Made by a program: the position numbers and the translations under genes. The notes below the pieces were generated by a model, which worked only from the letters and a program-made list of their open reading frames with translations, was not told where the DNA came from and did no database searches. This document shows positions 1,556 to 19,968 of a stretch of 64,000 bases of DNA, piece after piece. How positions within the stretch are numbered: position 1 is the first letter of the stretch; every line of letters begins with the position of its first letter. Origin of the DNA: Chloroflexota bacterium (GTDB taxonomy: Bacteria; Chloroflexota; Dehalococcoidia; Lucifugimonadales; JADFKI01); NCBI GenBank assembly GCA_009840355.1, contig VXNZ01000026.1:36921-100920 (forward strand), given 5' to 3'.

Positions 1556-4500
1556 GTGAATCATATTGACTCTCGCATTGTTACTGTGCCTATTGGCGAA
1601 AGCAGCCTTGCCGCACTGGACGAAGGCGTGGCGCGCGCGAAGGGCGACGCTCCGTTTGGGCGGGTCGTTGTCATCACAGACCATGTGGATGTCGGCAGCG
1701 CCGTTCGTCATCACTTAGGGACGTCGAACCTGCTCAATGTTTCCGTCCAGACCGGACGAATGTTTGCATCTGAACTCGCTGCGCCTATGTTCCGGAACAA
1801 GTTCAAGCAGGACGGCAGGAAGTATCGCCCGCTCTCTCCCCTGCGAGAACACCTAGCAGTTCGACAGGTGTCGGAAGAAGTGATGGAGCAGCACGACTTC
1901 CGTCTGTCCGGTCACAGCCGGATGATAAGGTCGCTCGCGGATGCCTTCCGTCGGATGCAAGAGCGTCCGCAAGACGATGGGGAGCCGGATGCCGGCCAGG
2001 ATATGACGCGGACCGGCGAAGGGCTATTGAAGAAATTCTTGGGACTAGTGCACGATTGGGATTGCTACACGCCGGCGGAACTGCCCCATATGGCTGCCGA
2101 AGCCCTTGAACGGCACTTGCCGCCGGAAAGTACGGTTCCGCATGTCATTTACTACTTGCCTAGGCGACTGTCTGAGGGCGACCTGCGACTGGTGCAGGCT
2201 TTGAGCGAGCGGGACAGGTGCGAATTAATCCTAGGCGTCAACGGCGACGAACAGGCAGACCAGCCGGTTCAAGAGCTTCTCGCCCGTTTGAATGAACCTA
2301 TCAATGGCGATGCCACTATCGAAGGCGATACTGCCCACGCTAATCCCCTTCAGCGGATTGCCGATGACGGCTGCATGTCCATAATCGCCGTGCCCGATCC
2401 GGCGGAGGAGGTTCGCATGGTAATCAGAGCCATTTCCGTCGAAAAAGCGCCATTTCACCGTACTGCCATAATATATCGGCAGGATAACCCGTATGCGACT
2501 CTACTGCGGCAAGAACTGGATGCGGCAGAAATACCATATTCGGGCACAGAACGCCGCAGTCTGGCGAGCACTCCATCAGGGCTGTTGCTGCTGGGCATCA
2601 TCGATCTCGCGTTAGGCGTAATCCACGAGGGCGCTATCGACCGCGAACGACTCATCGAGCTGATGACTTCGACGCCGATGAAATATCCGTCGAATAACGG
2701 AAACTATAAACGACCGTTCCATCCAGTGCCCGCATCGCAGTGGGCAGCGCTGGCTCGCGAAGCCCGTGCGGATGGCGGGCGGAAGCAATGGCACCGCCGC
2801 TTTCAGGCTTACCTAGATAATGAGAAGAGTCTTGCGATGGAGGCTGAGAGTAGGCGTCCTCGTCTGGAAAGAATGGAAAGGGAGATTTCCGAACTTCTTC
2901 GCTTCTTAGACGAGCTTGATGGTGCGCTTGAAGCGCTTGCAGGCGAATCTTGGCAGACTACGGTGAAGGGACTGCGGCGCTTGCTAGACCATTACCGTAT
3001 GGACACGGATGCTGAGTCTCAGGATGACCGACGGCGAATCGAAGAATTACTGGATAGCATGCAGTCGCTGGATGAGTTGGGGTATGAATTGAACCCACAA
3101 CTGCTGCGGGAAGTGCTTCACAACGGCCTTCAGAGTCCGGTATCGAACCGTGGCAGACCAGTGGGCGCGGGCGTGTACCTAGGTCCTCCGGCAGGCGTGG
3201 TTGGCACCGACTACGACACGGTGTATGTGCTTGGCATGGTGGAGAGGCAATTCCCGCCGCGTCCGGGAACGAACCCCTGGGTCGGCGGTAACCTGTCTGC
3301 GACCCAGCATGAGATGGCGCTGGAACGGTACGACTTCCTGGGTGGGATAGCCTCCGCGCAGAAGGCGGTTCTGTCATGGCCCGCCGCGACTGCGGAGCGC
3401 ACATCGGCATATCCTTCACGCTGGCTTATCGAAGCCGCGAATCTGCTTCATGCCGGCGCCGAAAGCGATGAACGGATTACCTATGAGAATCTCACCGAGA
3501 ACTCAGCCAACAAGCGATGGCTCACGGTCATTCCTTCACGAGAAGCAGGGCTGCGCGAACTCCCTGCATCTAAACCTAAAATGGAACCTGCCGACCGAGC
3601 CGACTACAACCTAATGCATCTGGTAACGCTCGCTGACACGGATGACGCGGACTTGAAGGCGCAGCAACTGGAGTCGCATCCTGCCATGGCGAAGGATACC
3701 CGCATGCGCCATGCGCTCAAGGCGCGAGCGGCTCGCTTCGGCGACAAACTGACCGAGTGGGACGGGCGAGTCGGGGCAGATAGCAGCCGCATCGCGGGTA
3801 TTGGCAGCACAGAATATCCGCTCTCGCCAAGTGCGCTCGAAGATTGGGCAACCTGTCCCTATAGGTTCTTCCTTGGACGGATACTACGGTTATCGTCGCC
3901 GAGGGACACGGAAGATGGGGAAATATCCAATCTTGATAGGGGCGGTCTAGTGCATAGAGTCCTAGAGCGATTCGTCAATGAGCGCGGCAGCACAGAAGAG
4001 AAACTCTTGGAATTGGCGCATGAGGAATTCGATTCGGCGGAGGAACGCGGGATAACCGGGCATCACCTGCTCTGGGAAATCGAAAAGCGGCGTATCCTTG
4101 ATGCGCTGAAGGCATTCTACGGGAAAGATGTTCAATGGCTTGGTGGCGCGACAACCGAATCCGCTGCCGAGCTTAACTTTGGAAGCGAATCCGATATCGG
4201 AAATGTGGTTGTCTCGGTCGAAGGTCTTGGCGATGTCAGTTTCAGGGGCAAGATAGACCGCGTGGATGTCTTGGACGGCGAGGTGAGGGTGCGCGACTTC
4301 AAGACCGGCAAGCCGGATTCATATCGGGGCAGGAATCCGAAAAGGACTGTCGCCAATGGATGCGCTATGCAGCTGCCCGTCTATCTTGAGGCGGCGCGTT
4401 CGATGCATCCTGACAAGCCGATAGCAGCGTCATACTGTTTCCCGCTGGCTGACAAGAACACCCATGACGTCGCGCCCTACACCGAGCAAAATAAGGAAGA

Positions 4501-4741
4501 ATTTCTGAACACCCTTGCCTTAATCGTCGGGGCGGCGCGCGACGGAATCTTCCCCGCTACGCCTGAGCAGGCAAGCGGCGAATGGGGCGGCAATTGCGGA
4601 TACTGCGACTTCAAGAGCCTGTGTCCTGCCCGTAAGCGCTTGTTCTGGGAGCGCAAGGGTGGGAACGACGCCGCCTTGCAGCCGATTGAAAGGCTGCAAA
4701 ATCCCGAAGCAGTAGTCGAACCGGAAGAGGAAAATGCCTGA
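1556..4741 (+). CDS. addB: AddB-like helicase/nuclease subunit (PD-(D/E)XK, Fe-S)
   Basis: This 1061-aa protein is probably the B subunit of an AddAB-type double-strand-break resection enzyme. The C-terminal part has the nuclease core (GKIDRVDV, then D914 and K916 in RDFKTGK). Four cysteines C767, C1014, C1017 and C1023 follow the AddB iron-sulfur spacing (C, long gap, CxxCx5C). The N-terminal part is a diverged helicase-like region without a Walker A motif, so any motor function would rest on the partner. It starts with GTG after GGGTAGG. It overlaps the downstream addA-like gene by 8 bp, which implies translational coupling. Family assignment rests on the Fe-S nuclease signature and on the neighbour. 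Confidence 0.85.
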   Translation: MNHIDSRIVTVPIGESSLAALDEGVARAKGDAPFGRVVVITDHVDVGSAVRHHLGTSNLLNVSVQTGRMFASELAAPMFRNKFKQDGRKYRPLSPLREHLAVRQVSEEVMEQHDFRLSGHSRMIRSLADAFRRMQERPQDDGEPDAGQDMTRTGEGLLKKFLGLVHDWDCYTPAELPHMAAEALERHLPPESTVPHVIYYLPRRLSEGDLRLVQALSERDRCELILGVNGDEQADQPVQELLARLNEPINGDATIEGDTAHANPLQRIADDGCMSIIAVPDPAEEVRMVIRAISVEKAPFHRTAIIYRQDNPYATLLRQELDAAEIPYSGTERRSLASTPSGLLLLGIIDLALGVIHEGAIDRERLIELMTSTPMKYPSNNGNYKRPFHPVPASQWAALAREARADGGRKQWHRRFQAYLDNEKSLAMEAESRRPRLERMEREISELLRFLDELDGALEALAGESWQTTVKGLRRLLDHYRMDTDAESQDDRRRIEELLDSMQSLDELGYELNPQLLREVLHNGLQSPVSNRGRPVGAGVYLGPPAGVVGTDYDTVYVLGMVERQFPPRPGTNPWVGGNLSATQHEMALERYDFLGGIASAQKAVLSWPAATAERTSAYPSRWLIEAANLLHAGAESDERITYENLTENSANKRWLTVIPSREAGLRELPASKPKMEPADRADYNLMHLVTLADTDDADLKAQQLESHPAMAKDTRMRHALKARAARFGDKLTEWDGRVGADSSRIAGIGSTEYPLSPSALEDWATCPYRFFLGRILRLSSPRDTEDGEISNLDRGGLVHRVLERFVNERGSTEEKLLELAHEEFDSAEERGITGHHLLWEIEKRRILDALKAFYGKDVQWLGGATTESAAELNFGSESDIGNVVVSVEGLGDVSFRGKIDRVDVLDGEVRVRDFKTGKPDSYRGRNPKRTVANGCAMQLPVYLEAARSMHPDKPIAASYCFPLADKNTHDVAPYTEQNKEEFLNTLALIVGAARDGIFPATPEQASGEWGGNCGYCDFKSLCPARKRLFWERKGGNDAALQPIERLQNPEAVVEPEEENA

Positions 4742-7700
4742 TAACGACACGAACACGCTCAATCGCATTGTGAACGACCTCGACGCCAATCTGATGATAG
4801 AGGCAGGGGCTGGAACGGGGAAGACATACGCCCTCGTGAGTCGCGTGGTTGCGTTGGTCAAATCCGGTGTGCGGATGCAGGAAATCGTGGCAATCACTTT
4901 CACGGTTGCAGCGGCAGCCGAACTGTCCGAACGCATACGCTCAAGGCTGGAGCAGCTGGCGGACAAGGACCATCCTGACAACACCAGCGACATCCTTGCA
5001 GAAGACCTGGACGAAGACTCGCGCGAACGCATTAAGCTGGCAATCGAGGAACTTGACCAAGCCACTATTCAGACAATCCACGGCTTTGCATCGCAGCTGC
5101 TCAGGGAACATCCTCTGGACGCAGGGCTGCCGCCGGGATGGATAGCGCTAGATGAAGTAGAAGCTTCGCGCCTGTTCGCAGAGCACTGGGACAAGTGGCT
5201 GGACGACACGCTGGCAGAGAATACATCGGTCGAACCGGAAGTTATCTGCGCGCTACGCTACCTGCTGAATAGCGAGGTAGGCGCTGCCAAATGGCGGGCT
5301 GTCGCGGATGCACTCAAGGACAACTGCGCGCGCCTAGCCGATAAGTCCGTCTTCGAGAAATTAGACCTGCCCGAGCTTGCACACGACACGCTGCGGAAAC
5401 TCAAAGAACTGGCGGCAGAGTGCAAAAATCCTTCTGACAAACTTTACGGGCAGCTGCAAGGCGCTATCGCCACCGTTGAATCAGTCCTTGCAGTGGCTGA
5501 TGATGTCCCGGCTGCGGCGGAAGTTCTGCGGAACGGCGAGCGAGTTGACTATTACAGAAATGTTGGAAGCGGAGCCAATTGGCAAATATCAACCGCAGAG
5601 GTGCGTGCCGAGTTCCGCGCGATTGGGCAGAAATTCACGGCGACAGTCTATGCTGCGCTTCTACTGCCGTTTCTGCACAATTTGCGGCAATTTGCCTTGG
5701 ACTACGAGCAAGAGCGTAAATCCGGAGGCGTGGCGACATTTGAAGACTTGCTCGCATGGTCGCGCGACCTACTGCGCGGGGATAAATCCGTGCGGGAGCA
5801 TCTTCAGAGTCGCTATACGCGGATATTGATAGACGAATTTCAGGACACTGACCCGCTGCAGGTGGAGATCGCATACTATCTAGCCGCCGACCCGAACGCG
5901 GAATTGGACAGGCATGCTTGGTACGAACTCCCGCTGTCTCCCGGAAGGCTGTTCGTCGTGGGAGACCCCAAGCAGTCCATCTACCGCTTTCGAGGCGCGG
6001 ACCTCGGCGTGGCGGAGTTGGTAGAGAGGGGTGGGCAGCTGCAAAAGCTCACGATTACAAAGAACCGCCGCTCTCAAAAAGCCATAATTGATTGGGTGAA
6101 CGCTGTGTTCGGCGCTAATAGCCTAATGACTGAAAATGCTGGCATACAGGCTGAATACATCGACCTAGAGCGTCACGACGATATTCAGCAGGAAGAAATC
6201 GGCGCTGCTGTGCGGCTGTTCGGCGAGCAAAAAGAGCTGAATGCCGATACTGTTCGACGGTTGCAGGCGCGCCATGTCGCCGGGCTGATAGTCAGATATG
6301 CCACCGGCGGGGAATCCGGTCTGGATGTGTACGACAAGAAGCTCAAGAGCGTTCGCAAGGCGAAGCTCGGCGACATCTGCATACTGGTACGGTCTCGAAC
6401 TGGTATCGAAATTCTGACGCAAACGCTGGAAGATTCGCGCATACCATACCGATTAGAGGGCGGTTCCTTACTCTTCGACACTCAGGAAGTACGCGATATG
6501 CTCAACTGCCTAAAAGCCATAGACGATCCGTACGATGAGGTGGCGGTTGTGGCAAGTCTTCGCTCGGCCGCCTTCGCCTGCTCCGATGTAGAACTGCTGG
6601 ATTGGCGAGAGTCCGGCTGCGGATGGAACTATACAAGGCAGATTCCCGACGATAAGCGTCTTGATTCGCCAGTCAGGAAGGCTTTCGATTGCTTGCGTAG
6701 TTACCATGAACGAAGGCTGACTGATGGCGTGTCCAAACTCATGGCGGACTTCGTTCGGGATAGGCGCTTGGACGAGCTAGACTTGGCGGAAAGGCGTCCT
6801 CGTGAGTCTTGGCGTCGGCGTCATTTCTTGTTGGAGCAGGCGCGGACTATGGAATACAGCCATGCCGTGAACCCGCATAGCCCGCCGCTGACGCTGAATA
6901 AGTTTTTGGATTGGGTGAAAATGCAGCAGAATGAGAACGCCAGAATTTCTGATTTGGTAGTCCCTGATCCTGACGACGACGCCGTGCGAATAATGACCAT
7001 GCATGCCTCCAAGGGATTGGAATTTCCCATCGTCATTCTGCTCGGGCTTAACCAAAGCTCTAACAGTGGTTCGTCTGCCGTTCTGTTTGACAATGAGAGT
7101 AGTGGGGCGGAGGTCAGGTTTCACAAAGAAATCGAGACCCCGGGCTATGCAGCTTTAAGCGATTCCGAAAAGGAACACGAGGACGCCGAAGCCGCGCGAC
7201 TAGCGTATGTCGCCGCTACTCGCGCACGAGATCATCTGCTGGTTAGCATGTATCACACCAATAGAGAAAGTAGCAGCGTCATTGGTAAGGTGGCAGAATT
7301 CAGTTCTGCCCTTCAAGGTCAAGGCCACTGCACTGAAGAACCTGAAGATCCCGTAGGCATTGCGATGCTGCCCACGCCTTCAACGGATGCCGTCGAACTT
7401 ACCGATTACGATGCTGAGCAGTGGGGAGCAGACCGCGAAAACGCTAATCGGCAGAGGATACAGCCCCGCGCGGTTACACCATCTTGGATAGCCCGAATTG
7501 CCGTAACCGACGATGCTACACTGCCCGTAGAGGTCGAAGACAAGGACCCTGAGCCTAGCAGCGAGCAGCCCAGCATAAGGGGGCGTGGTGGCACAGCATT
7601 CGGCAGTGCGCTGCACGCGGTGCTTCAGGAGATCGTCGATATAGTCTCGACTCGGACCCCACTGCCTGAAGGCGTGTCGATTGATAATCTGCTTGATGAA

Positions 7701-8180
7701 TTGGACGGCGAGATTATTCGATCGACTGAAGAACATGCCGAGTCGAACGGCGTAGCGCAAAGCATAGGCGAGATTGCACGGTTGGCTCGTATGGCGTTGC
7801 GCAACCCTGCATTGCAAGCCGCATTGGAATCGCCGCGAATGTGGGCGGAAGTCCCTGTCGCGGCGGAAATCGATTCTCTTGCCGGTCCAGTAGTGATAGA
7901 AGGTATCATCGACCTGCTTTATCAGAGCGCGGATGGCGAGTTCGTGATAGTGGACTACAAGTCGGACTACATCGCTGACGATGTCGCTTTGAAAGCCAAG
8001 ATGAAAAGCTATCGGTGGCAGGGAGCCGCATACGCAGCGGCAGTCCAAAAGGCAAGCGGGCAGAGCATTAAGGATGTCCAGCTTCTTTTCGTCAGAAGGG
8101 ACGAAGCTCAGTCCATCAAAGACCTAGACGGACTGATAGCACGGCTGCCAGAACTGTTAACCGTTCCAAAGAATGTGTGA
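4734..8180 (+). CDS. addA: AddA-like UvrD/RecB helicase-nuclease
   Basis: This 1148-aa superfamily 1A helicase is fused to a RecB-type nuclease. Visible motifs: Walker A GAGTGKT (residues 25-31), Walker B/motif II LIDEFQDTDP, motif III VVGDPKQSIYRFRGAD, motif V TMHASKGLEFP, and motif VI YVAATRARD. The nuclease core near the C-terminus has D1074 and K1076 in IVDYKSDY. With the AddB-like partner it should unwind and resect DNA ends to load RecA. Both subunits keep nuclease residues, as in AddAB rather than RecBCD. The following 8181-8414 interval shows no gene. Confidence 0.92.
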   Translation: MPDNDTNTLNRIVNDLDANLMIEAGAGTGKTYALVSRVVALVKSGVRMQEIVAITFTVAAAAELSERIRSRLEQLADKDHPDNTSDILAEDLDEDSRERIKLAIEELDQATIQTIHGFASQLLREHPLDAGLPPGWIALDEVEASRLFAEHWDKWLDDTLAENTSVEPEVICALRYLLNSEVGAAKWRAVADALKDNCARLADKSVFEKLDLPELAHDTLRKLKELAAECKNPSDKLYGQLQGAIATVESVLAVADDVPAAAEVLRNGERVDYYRNVGSGANWQISTAEVRAEFRAIGQKFTATVYAALLLPFLHNLRQFALDYEQERKSGGVATFEDLLAWSRDLLRGDKSVREHLQSRYTRILIDEFQDTDPLQVEIAYYLAADPNAELDRHAWYELPLSPGRLFVVGDPKQSIYRFRGADLGVAELVERGGQLQKLTITKNRRSQKAIIDWVNAVFGANSLMTENAGIQAEYIDLERHDDIQQEEIGAAVRLFGEQKELNADTVRRLQARHVAGLIVRYATGGESGLDVYDKKLKSVRKAKLGDICILVRSRTGIEILTQTLEDSRIPYRLEGGSLLFDTQEVRDMLNCLKAIDDPYDEVAVVASLRSAAFACSDVELLDWRESGCGWNYTRQIPDDKRLDSPVRKAFDCLRSYHERRLTDGVSKLMADFVRDRRLDELDLAERRPRESWRRRHFLLEQARTMEYSHAVNPHSPPLTLNKFLDWVKMQQNENARISDLVVPDPDDDAVRIMTMHASKGLEFPIVILLGLNQSSNSGSSAVLFDNESSGAEVRFHKEIETPGYAALSDSEKEHEDAEAARLAYVAATRARDHLLVSMYHTNRESSSVIGKVAEFSSALQGQGHCTEEPEDPVGIAMLPTPSTDAVELTDYDAEQWGADRENANRQRIQPRAVTPSWIARIAVTDDATLPVEVEDKDPEPSSEQPSIRGRGGTAFGSALHAVLQEIVDIVSTRTPLPEGVSIDNLLDELDGEIIRSTEEHAESNGVAQSIGEIARLARMALRNPALQAALESPRMWAEVPVAAEIDSLAGPVVIEGIIDLLYQSADGEFVIVDYKSDYIADDVALKAKMKSYRWQGAAYAAAVQKASGQSIKDVQLLFVRRDEAQSIKDLDGLIARLPELLTVPKNV

Positions 8181-8414: not shown

Positions 8415-11156
8415 TTACCGGCGATCCAGCCTTGAAGGCATCGCGTCGTGCTGTATTCCTCTCACCTCCATGCCCTGTGTACCTGATGAGCCGCTGCTAA
8501 CTGTCAGGGTGAAGTCGCCCAGGGTCTGCGGTTCGTATGTCGTCATATCGATGTAATATACTTTGCCTCCCGTTGGCGTCCAGCTGACTTTGGAGTTAGT
8601 ATTGCCCCGCACGATGTCGTCATTCCCGGCGACAAAGACGCGACCCTCGTTTTCTTCATCCCATTCCCAAAGGAACAGCGCCGTGTCTTTGCTCGATTCC
8701 AGTGTAGCTGTCCAGGCTCCACTTCCTACGGCAGTCACCTCGAAGCCCGTGTATCGATAATATCGGGCGCCTGCCGCTAGCGGAATCCCCGTGATTTCCT
8801 CTATTCTTTCACGGCTCAATGAATAGACACACTCTTGTGTCCATGAACCCGACAATACGATGGGCAGACCGGAGGATGCCGGCACATCAATGAAGCAAGG
8901 ATCCGGCTCAGGCGTCGCCGTCGGCTCTGCAGTGGCAGTAGGCTCAGGAGTTACGCCCGGCGGCAATGGCGTCGCAGTCGGTGTGGGAGTCTGCGTCGGT
9001 GTGGGCGTCGGTTGAGAAGCGCCCAGTTCCAGCGCTGCCACCCTGCTTGTCAGCGCGTCTATGGCATTTTGCAGCGTCACGATGAGCGCTTCCAGAATTT
9101 TCACCCTGTTCTCTATTTCTGATCCATCTGGTGACTCCGGCGTAGGGCTGGGAGTGGGCGTAGAGGTGGCGGTTGGCTTCGGCGTAGGGCTGGGAGTAAG
9201 CGTCGGGGTAGCGGTTGGCTCCGGCGTAGAGCTAGGAGTGGATGTCGGGGTAGCGGTTGGCTCCGGCGTAGGGCTAGGAACGGGCGTAGCGGTGGAGGTT
9301 AGCGTGGGCGCGTCGGACGCCGGCAGGTGAGCGAAACCGTGTCCCCATATATTGTCGGCGCCTGCTGCGCCGCGTGGCGCGGCGTTGTCCTTTAGGTATT
9401 GCGCGGTCTGCTGCGGACTATACTGCGGGAAGCGCTGCCTTACGAGGGCTGCCAAGCCGGCGACATGGGGGGATGCCTGGCTCGTTCCGAAGAAGTAGCC
9501 GTTAAGATTGCGCTCTGTGCGATATGTTACCGATTGCCCGGCGTCCGCGCCCACAATGTCAGGCTTAGTTCTATCGTCGAGCGTTGGGCCTCGGCTGCTG
9601 AACGGCTCGATTATGGTGGTGTCGAATGGGTTGCTGATACTGCTGTTCCGTCCGGCAGCGCCTACTGCTAGCAGGCCGGGGTTCGAGCTTTCGGCGGGAT
9701 TGGTGATGCTATGGGCGGCTGTGTGGTGCTGCAACGCGCCCGACGCGCCCCAGGCCAGAACCTGAACCCAATTCGGCGCCTCGCCTGAGTGTTTGACCAC
9801 GGCAAGGCAGTACACGCCGTTGGGGATGTCGCCGTACCCGATTCTAATCCGTTCGAATGGGACGTCGCTCGCTCTCCCCGACTGCGCTGTAACGCTCTGG
9901 GCGACAGCATCATCGGGCAGTATGAATGTGTTGCCTGACAAGGCAACTAGATAGAGGTCCAGATCGGTGTCTGCGCCGCCCCAGGAGCCTTCCCATCGGA
10001 GCTGCGCGGTGAAGCCTTCAAGAGGATCCAGTTCGATGCGAACGCCGTTGCATTCGTCCTTCGTCGTTGCGCTGAAATCGTGAACATTGTCGGTGTCGGT
10101 GTCGGAGTAATTGCCGAACCAATTTGCCCTAGCCTGGTTTCCTGCGGCGTTGACCCAGATGATGCCGCCCCTCACGGCGGCATCAACGGTTTTCAGGGGG
10201 CTGTTGCTGTATGGCGTTGTGCCGTCACCCGGCCCATGGAATGAAAAGCCAAGCGACATGTTGACGACGTCGACGCCCTCGGACTCCATCCACTCTACGG
10301 TTTCGAGCAGGTCTCCAAAAGACCAAACATTCGCTATGTAGTAGTCGGCTTCGGGCGCGATGTCGAACGCGGCTTCGGTTACCGCCGTGCCGTGCAGCTT
10401 TGTAGATTCAGTTCTTTCCGTGGGTATGCAGTCCGTGAGGCTTGAAGTGAATACGCCGACAGCGGTATAACATCTTGCTTCCACGGTCGAGGGCAGTTCC
10501 GTTCCCATAAGTTCTGCGAAGCCTTTGAAGCCCGCGTCGATTATGCCAATCTTGACACCGCTGCCCTTGATGCCGCCGGCGTGCCACGCGGGGACTCCAT
10601 GTGCTTCCACGCCCTCGCTGACAACTGCGCCTTGTGCGGGCTGGGGAGGAATGATGGTTCGGACGCTTATGACGCCTTCTTGTTGGGACGCATCAGGCAG
10701 CAGCGACACAGGAATGTACGCCTCGATGTAGTCTGTGCCGATGTTGCGCGGAGATGCGCCGTTCTCTTCAAGCCAGTCCCATAAGTCTTGGGCGTAGCCT
10801 TCAGTGATGTAGAGAGTAACGGCGACGGATTGCTCGTCGTGGATGGGCGCGCTCGCAGCGGCGACTTGCGCGCTGAACTGGCCTGACTGCACCTGCTCGA
10901 TGATGCGGTTGAGGTCGGAGTCCATGTTGGGGTATTGGGGCGGCTTAATCTTACCCTCACTGATGGTGGCATTCTCCACGCCTTGCCCATCTACCGGCTC
11001 TGTGGCAGCTTGGGGAGTGGGAGTGCCTCCGGTCTGCGCGAGTACCGTGGGCGCGTTACCACCGGCGGAGAGCGCCAGCCAAAGAAGCCCGACAGCCGCG
11101 ATTGTCAGGCTGATCGCCGCCAACTGCTTGACTCGCCCTTGAAGGTGATTGTTCAT
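8415..11156 (-). CDS. Secreted subtilisin-like (S8) serine protease
   Basis: This 913-aa exported protease has a signal peptide (about residues 1-41, ending VLAQ) and a prodomain-like segment to about 190. The S8 catalytic domain carries D207 (IGIIDAG), H255 (LHGTAV), oxyanion-hole N340 (NAAGN) and S559 (GTSQASPHVAG). A Thr/Pro-rich linker built of TPEPTATPT units follows, interrupted by a short heptad-like segment (EIENRVKILEALIVTLQ). A C-terminal beta domain resembles PPC-type domains. Start is ATG at 11156 with GGAGGA 9 bp upstream. The linker suggests a surface-attached or secreted enzyme whose domains are held apart. No sorting or anchor motif is visible at the C-terminus. Confidence 0.9.
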   Translation of the reverse strand: MNNHLQGRVKQLAAISLTIAAVGLLWLALSAGGNAPTVLAQTGGTPTPQAATEPVDGQGVENATISEGKIKPPQYPNMDSDLNRIIEQVQSGQFSAQVAAASAPIHDEQSVAVTLYITEGYAQDLWDWLEENGASPRNIGTDYIEAYIPVSLLPDASQQEGVISVRTIIPPQPAQGAVVSEGVEAHGVPAWHAGGIKGSGVKIGIIDAGFKGFAELMGTELPSTVEARCYTAVGVFTSSLTDCIPTERTESTKLHGTAVTEAAFDIAPEADYYIANVWSFGDLLETVEWMESEGVDVVNMSLGFSFHGPGDGTTPYSNSPLKTVDAAVRGGIIWVNAAGNQARANWFGNYSDTDTDNVHDFSATTKDECNGVRIELDPLEGFTAQLRWEGSWGGADTDLDLYLVALSGNTFILPDDAVAQSVTAQSGRASDVPFERIRIGYGDIPNGVYCLAVVKHSGEAPNWVQVLAWGASGALQHHTAAHSITNPAESSNPGLLAVGAAGRNSSISNPFDTTIIEPFSSRGPTLDDRTKPDIVGADAGQSVTYRTERNLNGYFFGTSQASPHVAGLAALVRQRFPQYSPQQTAQYLKDNAAPRGAAGADNIWGHGFAHLPASDAPTLTSTATPVPSPTPEPTATPTSTPSSTPEPTATPTLTPSPTPKPTATSTPTPSPTPESPDGSEIENRVKILEALIVTLQNAIDALTSRVAALELGASQPTPTPTQTPTPTATPLPPGVTPEPTATAEPTATPEPDPCFIDVPASSGLPIVLSGSWTQECVYSLSRERIEEITGIPLAAGARYYRYTGFEVTAVGSGAWTATLESSKDTALFLWEWDEENEGRVFVAGNDDIVRGNTNSKVSWTPTGGKVYYIDMTTYEPQTLGDFTLTVSSGSSGTQGMEVRGIQHDAMPSRLDRR
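9139..9306 (-). repeat. 42-bp tandem repeats coding the Thr/Pro linker
   Basis: Units start at 9139, 9181, 9223 and 9265, each beginning GGCGTAG on the + strand. The first three are near identical and the fourth is degenerate at its end. Each unit codes 14 residues of the TPxPTATPT linker in the subtilase, so copy number probably varies in frame and changes linker length. Confidence 0.8.
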
Positions 11157-15076: not shown

Positions 15077-15130
15077 CGGGCGGATACATAACATCACTAC
15101 CTGTTGGCGACTGTTCTGCGAACAACTGTG

Positions 15131-15160
15131 TTGCAAATTTAGAAACTAATGTGTTATATT
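15131..15160 (+). promoter_or_regulatory. Promoter placing a leaderless start on the nuclease gene
   Basis: TTGCAA (15131-15136) and TATATT (15155-15160) are 18 bp apart. Transcription would begin about 6-7 bp after the -10 box, at or next to the ATG at 15167. No ribosome site is present, so a leaderless transcript is the simplest reading. Confidence 0.5.
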
Positions 15161-15166
15161 GCGTGC

Positions 15167-16867
15167 ATGGGAAAAGCACAGACGACATACCAAGTACGCG
15201 CGAAGGTGTCTAAGTCCGGTCATATCTTACTCAATGAGCGGCTGGATGAGGCGCGCTTTGAGTATAACGCCACGCTTGAAGACAGGCGCAGAGCGTACAA
15301 ACTGCTTGGTTTGTCCATAAAGAAGCAAAGCGCAGGAGTTGTGAAAAACCGCGAACCTCTTAATCGTACATTATCCGAACTTCACCGTCTGGAGCACGAG
15401 CTTACTAAACTTGAAGCCGCCGATGCGGACAAACGCAAGATTGAAGAGGCTAGGCGCGCGGTAAGTAGATGGTGGCGGGACTGGCGCGACGACCGCATGA
15501 AGGAACGATGGCCGAGCGTAGCAGAAATAGAAAGTGATGATGGAAATCATTACTACGGAAAACGCTCGGACACACGACGGCTTATCAACTCAGGGCGCAT
15601 CCTGACCGAGACGCGCAATGGCAAGACACTGCTGCCTCGTCGGGCACGCGTGGGCATCATAGAGCGCGCCGACTTCGCTTACGACGGCTTCTTCCAGCGT
15701 CTCACGCGCGGATCTACTCCGGGCTTTCCGCGCTTCAAGGGCAAGGACCGTTTTCGCACAATCTCTACGAACAGCGGTGCGGAGAATTACTTGTCGTACA
15801 ATCCTCAATCGCGCAAAGGCATGGTTCGCATCAAGGGATTCCCTACGCTGCGTTTCATGTCCAAGCGCGAGTTGTCATTGGACGAACAGGGCAAGGTAGT
15901 ACAGCCGTCGCAGATAAGTATTACGCGTAAGCGCACAGGCGTGTACCTCTCGCTTACATACCCCGTCGATGTAGAGCCACAGCGTGAAGGCATGCCACAC
16001 GCGCCCATAGGCATAGACAGGGGCATCCATGCGCTTATGGCGTTTTCGGACGGTCGTCTGTCTATCCCAGGGTTGAATGAAAACGCCAAAGCGCGGCGCA
16101 AACGCAAGCGTAAGGCGCAGCGCAAAGTAAACCGTGCCGGCGTCGCCAAAGACGGCAAGGGCGGCAAGCAAGTTACATGCGGAAAGGAAGTAAGACGCAA
16201 GCGTAATCGCGGCAACGGAGAATACATCCACTTCACCAATGGCAGGCGAAAGGCAGTCGAGGCTTTGGGGCGCGTTAGTGAACGTGACACGCTGGGTCAT
16301 CGTCAACGCTTGCACCGCTACACATCGGAAATTGTCAAATCATCGGACTTCATAGCTGTCGAAAATTTGAACATCGCCAACATGACAAAATCGGCGGCTG
16401 GAGATGCGGACAATCCCGGCAAGGGCGTGTCGGCAAAGAGCGGGCTAAACCGCTCGATACTTGAACAGGGCTGGGGATACATCGCACAGATGCTGGAGTA
16501 CAAGGCTGGGAGAGCCGGTATTCCCTTTGTGAAAGTCGAACCTGCCTATACATCGCAGACTTGCGCTGTCTGTGGCGTCATAGACGCTGCGAGTCGACGC
16601 AAGCGCAGATTCGACTGCGTAGCCTGCGACTATGAGAACGACGCCGACATTAACGGCGCGATAAATGTCTTGTCCCGTGCGCTCGTTGAGCGATACGGCA
16701 GGGGTGAAGCGCAGCCGCTCATCGAGAGGCTAATCCCCTGGGAGAGCGGCAAGAATGCCCTGCGGGGTAATGATGACTCTGCTAGACTCAAGTCGAAGAC
16801 AGAAGGGCTCCCAGAATGCCGACGTCACGCGAAGGGATTGCCACGCGGTCAGTTGCGGTTGCTCTAG
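15167..16867 (+). CDS. TnpB/Cas12-like RuvC nuclease next to a CRISPR mini-array
   Basis: This 566-aa OrfB/TnpB-related protein has a helical, charged N-terminal part and an OrfB-type segment PGFPRFKGKDRFRTIS. A split RuvC domain has D284 (IGIDRG), E399 (AVENLNI) and D494 (NDADINGA) all intact. A zinc ribbon uses C466, C469, C484 and C487. A very basic stretch lies between RuvC-I and RuvC-II. It is longer than typical TnpB (about 400 aa) and near the size of small type V-U effectors. No TnpA, transposon ends, cas1 or cas2 are seen. Its stop lies 18 bp before a regular repeat array, so an RNA-guided DNA nuclease is inferred. Start ATG 15167 is favoured over 15149 because of the promoter. A plain IS605-type TnpB remains the alternative. 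Confidence 0.85.
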   Translation: MGKAQTTYQVRAKVSKSGHILLNERLDEARFEYNATLEDRRRAYKLLGLSIKKQSAGVVKNREPLNRTLSELHRLEHELTKLEAADADKRKIEEARRAVSRWWRDWRDDRMKERWPSVAEIESDDGNHYYGKRSDTRRLINSGRILTETRNGKTLLPRRARVGIIERADFAYDGFFQRLTRGSTPGFPRFKGKDRFRTISTNSGAENYLSYNPQSRKGMVRIKGFPTLRFMSKRELSLDEQGKVVQPSQISITRKRTGVYLSLTYPVDVEPQREGMPHAPIGIDRGIHALMAFSDGRLSIPGLNENAKARRKRKRKAQRKVNRAGVAKDGKGGKQVTCGKEVRRKRNRGNGEYIHFTNGRRKAVEALGRVSERDTLGHRQRLHRYTSEIVKSSDFIAVENLNIANMTKSAAGDADNPGKGVSAKSGLNRSILEQGWGYIAQMLEYKAGRAGIPFVKVEPAYTSQTCAVCGVIDAASRRKRRFDCVACDYENDADINGAINVLSRALVERYGRGEAQPLIERLIPWESGKNALRGNDDSARLKSKTEGLPECRRHAKGLPRGQLRLL

Positions 16868-16885
16868 CTCCGTATTTCCGCTAGG

Positions 16886-17035
16886 GGCAACCCCACGCGG
16901 GCGCGGATGCTTCCTGCTTCCAGTCGTACTCCATTTCCGTCGTGTAGGCAACCCCACGCGGGCGCGGATGCTTCTCCTTGAGCGAATCACCCCAATCCCC
17001 ATGACACGGCAAACCCACGCGGGCGCGGGTGCTTC
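16886..17035 (+). CRISPR. Short CRISPR array, 28-bp repeats and 33-bp spacers
   Basis: Repeats lie at 16886-16913, 16947-16974 and 17008-17035, an exact 61-bp period. The first two are identical and the third differs at two positions. The core is CCACGCGGGCGCGG, partly self-complementary (CC.CGC against GCG.GG). Spacers at 16914-16946, 16975-17007 and 17036-17068 are each 33 bp and unrelated to one another. Decay towards the right, ending in a degenerate fourth repeat, suggests that the leader side is the nuclease-gene side. Repeat and period resemble type I-E arrays (29 + 32), yet the only nuclease beside it is the TnpB/Cas12-like one. Confidence 0.8.
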
Positions 17036-17068
17036 GTATATGGGGAGAGAGGGAAGCCCCTAATTGCA

Positions 17069-17096
17069 GGTTGACCTACGCGGTCGCGAACTGCGT
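17069..17096 (+). repeat. Degenerate terminal CRISPR repeat
   Basis: It starts exactly 61 bp after the third repeat and keeps 15 of 28 positions of the consensus, mainly the ACGCGG and CGCG core. This is what a decayed trailer-end repeat looks like, and it makes the preceding 33 bp a real third spacer. Confidence 0.55.
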
Positions 17097-17123
17097 GGGA
17101 ACTCGTTTGAATGGAGCGCACTT

Positions 17124-19155: not shown

Positions 19156-19476
19156 TTACGACTGCATCTTGCCGGGCGTCAGCAGCTCCATGAATTCTAT
19201 GTACGTGCCCTCGATGTAGGGCTGGAATGCTGCGCCCGCCCGCATCGCTTCAGACGGCATTTCGTTGCCGTCGCGGTACGGAGACTGGAAGGCAGCAGTC
19301 TCCCACTCGAGGACGACTACATCCTTATCGCCGGGGCATGTGCCGGAGTTGTAGGCGACCCTAAACGCCTCGCGATGGCCCTCGTCGTGGAAAATTTGCA
19401 CTTGCTTTTGCACGAGGGTCGCCACGCGGCGCGCCTCTCCTGGCTTGGTTATAAAGGTTCTTCTTACCAGGTACAT
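19156..19476 (-). CDS. 106-aa protein, tandem paralogue 1
   Basis: The protein begins MYLVRRTFITKPGEARRVA and carries EFRVAY-like and VVVLEWET strands, compatible with a small ferredoxin-like (dimeric alpha/beta barrel) fold. No named family can be assigned. ATG 19476 is chosen because AGAGGA lies 6-8 bp upstream. It differs from its neighbour at 19572-19892 at 27 of 106 positions with no gap, so the pair arose by tandem duplication. Confidence 0.75.
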   Translation of the reverse strand: MYLVRRTFITKPGEARRVATLVQKQVQIFHDEGHREAFRVAYNSGTCPGDKDVVVLEWETAAFQSPYRDGNEMPSEAMRAGAAFQPYIEGTYIEFMELLTPGKMQS

Positions 19477-19571
19477 CCGGTTTCCTCTGTGTAATCTGAT
19501 TCGAATTGATTTGAGGAGCATGGCGCAAACCAGCGGTGGATGGAAAAATATGCGCCAATGGGGGCTGATGC

Positions 19572-19892
19572 CTACTCCTGCATCTTGCCGGGGGTCATCA
19601 GTTCCCAGAACTCTATGTAGGTCTCTTCGATGTAAGGGCGATAGGCGGCGCCCGCTTCATAGGCGGCAGGCGGGATGTTGTTGCCATCGCGCGCCGGGGA
19701 CTGGAATGCGTCGGTCTCCCACTCCAGGACGACGATGTTCTGCTCGCCGGGGCACGTGCGGTCGTTGTACGCGACCCGAAATTCCTCGCGGTGGCCCGCG
19801 TCGTGGTAAATCTGCACCTGGTTGTGCACCAAAGTCGCCACACGGCGTGCCTCGCCGGGCTTGGTCTTGTATGTTCGCCTGACTAGATACAT
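19572..19892 (-). CDS. 106-aa protein, tandem paralogue 2
   Basis: Paralogue of the preceding gene, same length, about 75% identical by eye count. ATG 19892 follows AAGGAG. Differences concentrate in the middle (residues 44-53) and in residues 72-88; the N-terminal MYLVRRT and C-terminal TPGKMQ ends are kept. Both are transcribed in the same direction with about 95 bp between them, each with its own good ribosome site. Confidence 0.75.
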   Translation of the reverse strand: MYLVRRTYKTKPGEARRVATLVHNQVQIYHDAGHREEFRVAYNDRTCPGEQNIVVLEWETDAFQSPARDGNNIPPAAYEAGAAYRPYIEETYIEFWELMTPGKMQE

Positions 19893-19968
19893 TCGATTTC
19901 TCCTTGTTGTAATGTGGTCATCCAAATGTGGTCATTCTACTTTGATATGGACATGGTTTCTGCTCACT

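Follow-up and report, generated by a model that had tools for sequence, protein, structure and literature searches.

Roughly 50 independent transitions from TnpB to Cas12 are inferred in one source (PMC12669027), which also cites Benz et al. 2024 for the acquisition of spacers in trans by type IV-A3. Among the Cas12 effectors, Cas12n (V-N/V-U4, with RdCas12n, PDB 9J09, and AcCas12n) is given a PAM of AAN and a tracrRNA inside its own mRNA in a review (PMC11641405). The locus described here lies in a 64,000-nt stretch of a Chloroflexota genome (the window) and shares with Cas12n the TnpB-like size, an array without its own cas1/cas2 and a scaffold within the nuclease gene; Cas12n is also its best solved relative by profile. 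However, the cited Cas12n case is from Actinomadura, and the Chloroflexota loci have several nuclease-dead relatives. Their repeats are I-E-like with a co-varying pseudoknot end, and the known Cas12n arrays may be I-E-like as well.

The closest fold is that of TnpB (ISDra2, IS200/IS605), whose scaffold likewise overlaps the 3' end of the gene. TnpB has one guide, whereas the window locus has several arrayed spacers and no annotated tnpA-like neighbour. Pseudoknots of the omegaRNA type are present in TnpB omegaRNAs and in Cas12f-type guide RNAs. With type I-E systems the locus has in common the 28+33 geometry, repeat core, orientation, leader end and bias at the first base of the spacer, but no Cascade, Cas3, Cas6e or Cas1 gene was found beside the window array, and the last 6 nt of its repeat are fitted to a type V scaffold. 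As in type IV-A3, an effector without cas1/cas2 would rely on the adaptation proteins of another system, although the effector here is Class 2 and TnpB-derived. These loci bear on the question of how a transposon nuclease without cas1/cas2 gains a spacer array. The window locus is interpreted, with a probability of about 0.6, as a stand-alone type V (Cas12n-like/V-U4, TnpB-derived) CRISPR locus into which spacers were inserted in trans by I-E Cas1-Cas2.

Nuclease gene and array

The window nuclease carries a Cas12f1-like TNB domain (PF07282, E 4e-23) and an OrfB_IS605 domain (PF01385), with the RuvC D/E/D residues and both CxxC pairs (zinc-ribbon cysteines) intact. It is a RuvC-type TnpB/Cas12 nuclease within the 400-700 aa size range of Cas12n, and the retained D/E/D argues against a nuclease-dead (TldR/Cas12m-like) protein. 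The top PADLOC model is Cas12u4 (2.5e-46), but array-less TnpBs score similarly with this model, so Cas12n and TnpB are not separated by profile alone and it was rejected as a classifier. With a profile of seven members, the best solved relative is the RdCas12n-sgRNA complex (9j09, E 3e-53, nearly full length). A structure predicted from 43 sequences (pLDDT 80; a single-sequence prediction with pLDDT 38 was discarded) has its closest structural match in ISDra2 TnpB (Z 21.8, rmsd 3.0, 331 residues), with RdCas12n at Z 13.3 on a 257-residue chain. When genome contigs and viral contigs were scanned with single sequences, no close relatives were found, and Rfam gave no match.

The array begins 18 nt past the nuclease stop codon on the same strand, and its 28-nt repeats start at intervals of 61 and 61 nt, leaving 33-nt spacers (Table 1). 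At the distal end a fourth repeat copy keeps the register exactly; by identity alone it is not significant, as 47 of 63,972 28-mers in the window reach 16/28. Across the whole 3.28-Mb genome, the array is the sole site that matches the repeat core pattern without mismatch. Chance is not a sufficient explanation of the spacing: the three 28-mers follow one another at steps of exactly 61 nt, two have the same sequence, and homologous loci share the layout. The preliminary description of a 28+33 array of period 61 adjoining a TnpB/Cas12-like gene is therefore confirmed, with three repeats and a weak fourth, and so is its statement that no Cascade gene lies beside the array: the genes on either side encode a luciferase-like monooxygenase and an oxidoreductase of the Gfo/Idh/MocA type. 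Adaptation genes were not found at the locus. The neighbours of the nuclease comprise monooxygenase, oxidoreductase and methyltransferase genes, with no tnpA-like gene among the annotated flanking genes. In the related genome G395 the monooxygenase and Gfo/Idh/MocA genes are adjacent, without the insert. No protospacers were found in phage records, where a single match was at chance level (E 5), or in viral contigs searched with four degenerate patterns.

Table 1. Positions of the nuclease, scaffold and array features in the window.
Feature	Position	Strand	Basis or remark
Insert of ~2 kb (nuclease + array)	15077-17123	+	flanking genes 32 nt apart in G395
TnpB/Cas12n-like RNA-guided nuclease gene, 566 aa, intact catalytic residues	15167-16867	+	profiles, fold
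Predicted scaffold hairpin within 3' end of CDS, CAGGGG (16699-16704) / CCCCTG (16735-16740)	16699-16740	+	minimum-energy fold
Predicted pseudoknot strand GAAGCG in hairpin loop, complementary to repeat end TGCTTC	16706-16711	+	10/10 loci
Leader-end trinucleotide AGG, directly 5' of repeat 1	16883-16885	+	cf. I-E leaders of related genomes
CRISPR repeat 1, GGCAACCCCACGCGGGCGCGGATGCTTC	16886-16913	+	
Spacer 1, 33 nt	16914-16946	+	
CRISPR repeat 2, same sequence as repeat 1	16947-16974	+	
Spacer 2, 33 nt	16975-17007	+	
CRISPR repeat 3, 2 changes (93%)	17008-17035	+	
Spacer 3, 33 nt as far as the degenerate copy	17036-17068	+	
Degenerate terminal repeat, in register, 15/28 identical	17069-17096	+	

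Distribution in related genomes

Homologues were searched for in the genus, family and order of the window genome. A nuclease homologue with an array immediately 3' and co-directional is found in six genomes of the same order (G396, G393, G546, G528, G576 and G541). The six arrays have a period of 61 except for single odd units and are almost always 28+33, and their nucleases are divergent homologues, each with its own array. A further locus, L040 (4715-4865) of G092, from another family of the class (Tepidiformaceae), has a 36-nt repeat and a 30-nt spacer; no Cas1 was found in G092, and no plasmid match to its nuclease was found at E 1e-40. In the tree the proteins that have arrays are not monophyletic, and the deep branches are poorly resolved. 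Arrays may have had a single origin followed by losses, or may have been gained repeatedly.

Repeats near the leader are intact, whereas those at the distal end have degenerated, the polarity normally produced when new units enter next to the leader. In G396 (L041, 4875-4963) the first two spacers, which are neighbours, differ at 4/33 positions and their repeats at 5/28; this may reflect duplication of a unit with drift, or two related protospacers. The estimated contamination of G393 and G396 is 7% (tool's estimate), and G546 is a single contig with 99% completeness.

The RuvC acidic residues are lost in effectors of G393, G528 and G541, as in Cas12m (V-M) and TldR; these differ from the present loci in that the window protein keeps all catalytic residues and the relatives have I-E-like arrays. 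Some members of the effector family thus probably bind without cutting, judging from the lost RuvC residues. Loss of catalytic residues among the homologues was noted in L027, L028 and L029 (G393), L066 (G528), L071 (G541) and L067-L069. The nuclease-dead L028 and L029 each have a single repeat-like end sharing GGAYGATTC, as in one-guide regulators.

Pairing of the repeat end with the nuclease gene

The last 6 nt of the window repeats (16908-16913, 16969-16974 and 17030-17035) are complementary to the hairpin loop strand of Table 1, and the minimum-energy fold of positions 16667-16913 joins the two. All ten loci compared have a segment, 24-48 nt 3' of the NAAxN codons in the terminal part of the gene, to which the final six nucleotides of the repeat are complementary; in most loci, inspection places this segment in the loop of a hairpin. 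The scaffold/repeat pairs of the window and the six array loci are GAAGCG/TGCTTC (window), GAAGCC/GGCTTC, GAATCA/TGATTC, GGAACG/TGTTCC, GGAGCA/TGCTCC, GAATCT/GGATTC and GGAACG/CGTTCC. The repeat end of G092 also fits a scaffold pseudoknot (GTTGAG/CTCAAC) despite the different array, and the single-repeat loci L028 and L029 have GAATCG/CGATTC and GAGTCA/TGATTC, although for L029 the scoring script chose an overlapping alternative.

When repeats were re-paired with the scaffolds of other loci, equally good pairing was obtained in 6 of 200,000 permutations over the 10 loci, and in 214 of 200,000 over the 7 arrays only. Four other parts of the repeat gave no signal in this test, and most other regions fail it, with +100 to +150 after NAAxN weakly exceeding the permutations. 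A conventional tracr anti-repeat to the 5' half of the repeat is not above permutation overall, with good pairings in the window genome (G000), G541 and G546. The Cas12n arrangement, in which a scaffold encoded within the nuclease gene pairs with the repeat, would be supplied here by the pseudoknot.

As the repeat end co-varies, in a pseudoknot of the omegaRNA type, with the scaffold of the nuclease's own gene, the array appears to serve the nuclease and not to be a stray I-E array. At the level of sequence, there is strong evidence that array and nuclease are one system and that the repeat is read by the scaffold of the effector.

Similarity to I-E arrays

Aligned in register and without gaps, the repeats of the seven type V-linked loci (V repeats) are 59% identical to the I-E repeats of related genomes; at any other offset the identity is 20-39%, and none of 5000 shuffles was as good. 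A shared CCC...GGG palindrome accounts for part of this similarity. The V-to-I-E likeness is 0.46-0.76 over repeat positions 1-22 and 0.40 over positions 23-28, yet the latter reach 0.67 among the V repeats. On these alignments the V repeat is a composite, I-E-like at 1-22 and non-I-E at 23-28. Spacers of 33 nt predominate in both groups (24/26 V, 515/518 I-E), and few spacers begin with A (1/26 V, P 0.02; 5/515 I-E). Leaders end in AGR in register in 5/7 V (one base off in G576, no fit in G541) and 6/7 I-E cases, in contrast to spacer ends, where AGR occurs in 0/26 V and 8/518 I-E. Beyond the last 3 nt, the likeness of V and I-E leaders is uneven. V and I-E arrays have no spacers in common at a threshold of at least 22/33.

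For the V repeats, the I-E repeat of the same genome is not the closest match, and direct copying of the host's I-E repeat was rejected as their source. The V repeat of G396, for example, matches the window repeat at 22/28 positions and the G396 I-E repeat at 18/28. In the preliminary description the array was suggested to be borrowed from, or fed by, a I-E system. The resemblance of geometry and repeat core on which this was based is real, as seen in repeat alignment, spacer length, first-base bias and leader end. Borrowing fits less well, since the V repeats resemble each other as much as or more than they resemble I-E repeats, and their last 6 nt differ and pair with the nuclease scaffold; that the array is fed by I-E machinery is plausible. 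The evidence that the repeat is read by I-E Cas1-Cas2 is moderate and indirect.

I-E adaptation genes

Neither Cas1 (PF01867, TIGR03638) nor Cas6e (PF08798) was found in the window genome, a draft of 3.28 Mb in 57 contigs that is 97% complete. The search for a I-E locus proposed with the preliminary description thus detected none in the window's own genome, but it did find I-E loci, with repeats resembling the V repeats, in 4 of 6 related array-bearing genomes. Any such genes may have been on a contig lost from the draft. As a writer is undetectable in this genome, the window array probably cannot grow; most likely it is now frozen, or its spacers were taken up earlier or elsewhere.

I-E-type Cas1 is found beside 28+33 arrays in G393, G396, G528 and G546, and none was found in G541 and G576. 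In G396 matches to Cas1, Cas3, Cse2, Cas7, Cas5 and Cas6e were confirmed in the I-E locus, and G546 carries both the V and the I-E system on its one contig. I-E Cas1 is thus present in 4/7 array genomes versus 20/250 genomes in the order (P 0.0009, ignoring relatedness), but both Cas1e and V arrays cluster in two families, so the co-occurrence is weaker than this P suggests.

Two side observations concern these cas loci. The Cse2 product of the G396 I-E locus (L096, 15381-16382) has a weak N-terminal VRR-NUC nuclease-like match, below Pfam's cut-off. L104, L105 and L106 (G541, G393 and G576) contain unusually long Cas1 ORFs of 588-884 aa, possibly fusions, which adjoin arrays with ~36-nt repeats and a period of 72-75.

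Origin and function of the array

Under the favoured interpretation, of a type V locus supplied by I-E Cas1-Cas2, the transcript of the 3' end of the nuclease gene would provide the scaffold (tracrRNA/omegaRNA part), each repeat-spacer would yield one guide, and the nuclease would cut DNA matching the spacer. Going by the geometry, the shape recognised by I-E Cas1-Cas2 would be kept in the leader end and in the remaining ~22 nt of each repeat, and this complex would insert the 33-nt spacers in trans, as would be possible in the four related genomes that hold both systems. The suggested route is that the omegaRNA pseudoknot was kept at the 3' end of the repeat while the outline of a resident I-E repeat was adopted, so that an existing Cas1-Cas2 writes guides for the newcomer nuclease. 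G546 is a natural test case for this route. A broader proposal, to which we assign even odds, is that a TnpB-derived (Cas12n-like) lineage with cutting and nuclease-dead members turned into an adaptive immune or regulatory system through a two-code repeat, the 5' part serving I-E Cas1-Cas2 and the 3' hexamer the scaffold of the effector.

Alternatively, the array may be native to the nuclease, derived by tandem duplication and drift of an omegaRNA end with its guide, with guide length dictating the 61 nt and convergence on a GC-rich hairpin producing the likeness to I-E. The single repeat-like ends of L028 and L029, which resemble a one-guide omegaRNA and carry the same GGAYGATTC, would suit such an origin, as would the near-identical spacers of G396 and the missing writer gene of the window genome. 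However, the other arrays combine unrelated spacers with identical repeats and degenerate distal copies, for which polar insertion is needed; spacer length is near-invariant, and the arrays agree with I-E in first-base bias and leader end. G092, moreover, has the same pseudoknot with unrelated 36-nt repeats and 30-nt spacers, so I-E geometry is not imposed by the scaffold. A native origin appears unlikely. Filling by another, non-I-E adaptation system with 28+33 units as its product, or by a writer present only for a time on a mobile element, would account for the absence of I-E Cas1 from 3/7 array genomes and agrees with the ~2-kb nuclease and array unit being an insertion. We consider it rather improbable, because among the cas1-linked arrays retrieved from these genomes only the I-E ones are 28+33, while the other CRISPR arrays fetched in the array genomes have periods of 64-75 and not 61. 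Least credible, and rejected, is an ordinary orphan I-E array that lies beside a TnpB gene by chance: geometry and core are as in I-E, but the arrangement recurs in seven divergent loci, and the 3' end of the repeat departs from I-E and co-varies with the scaffold of the neighbouring gene.

Other features of the window

Adjacent large ORFs at 1556-8180 carry PDDEXK_1 and UvrD helicase domains and resemble AddB/AddA recombination genes. A 913-aa ORF contains a 42-bp tandem repeat (9135-9300) that encodes a Pro/Thr-rich linker. Two similar small genes lie in tandem on the minus strand (19156-19521 and 19572-19925), an evident duplication.
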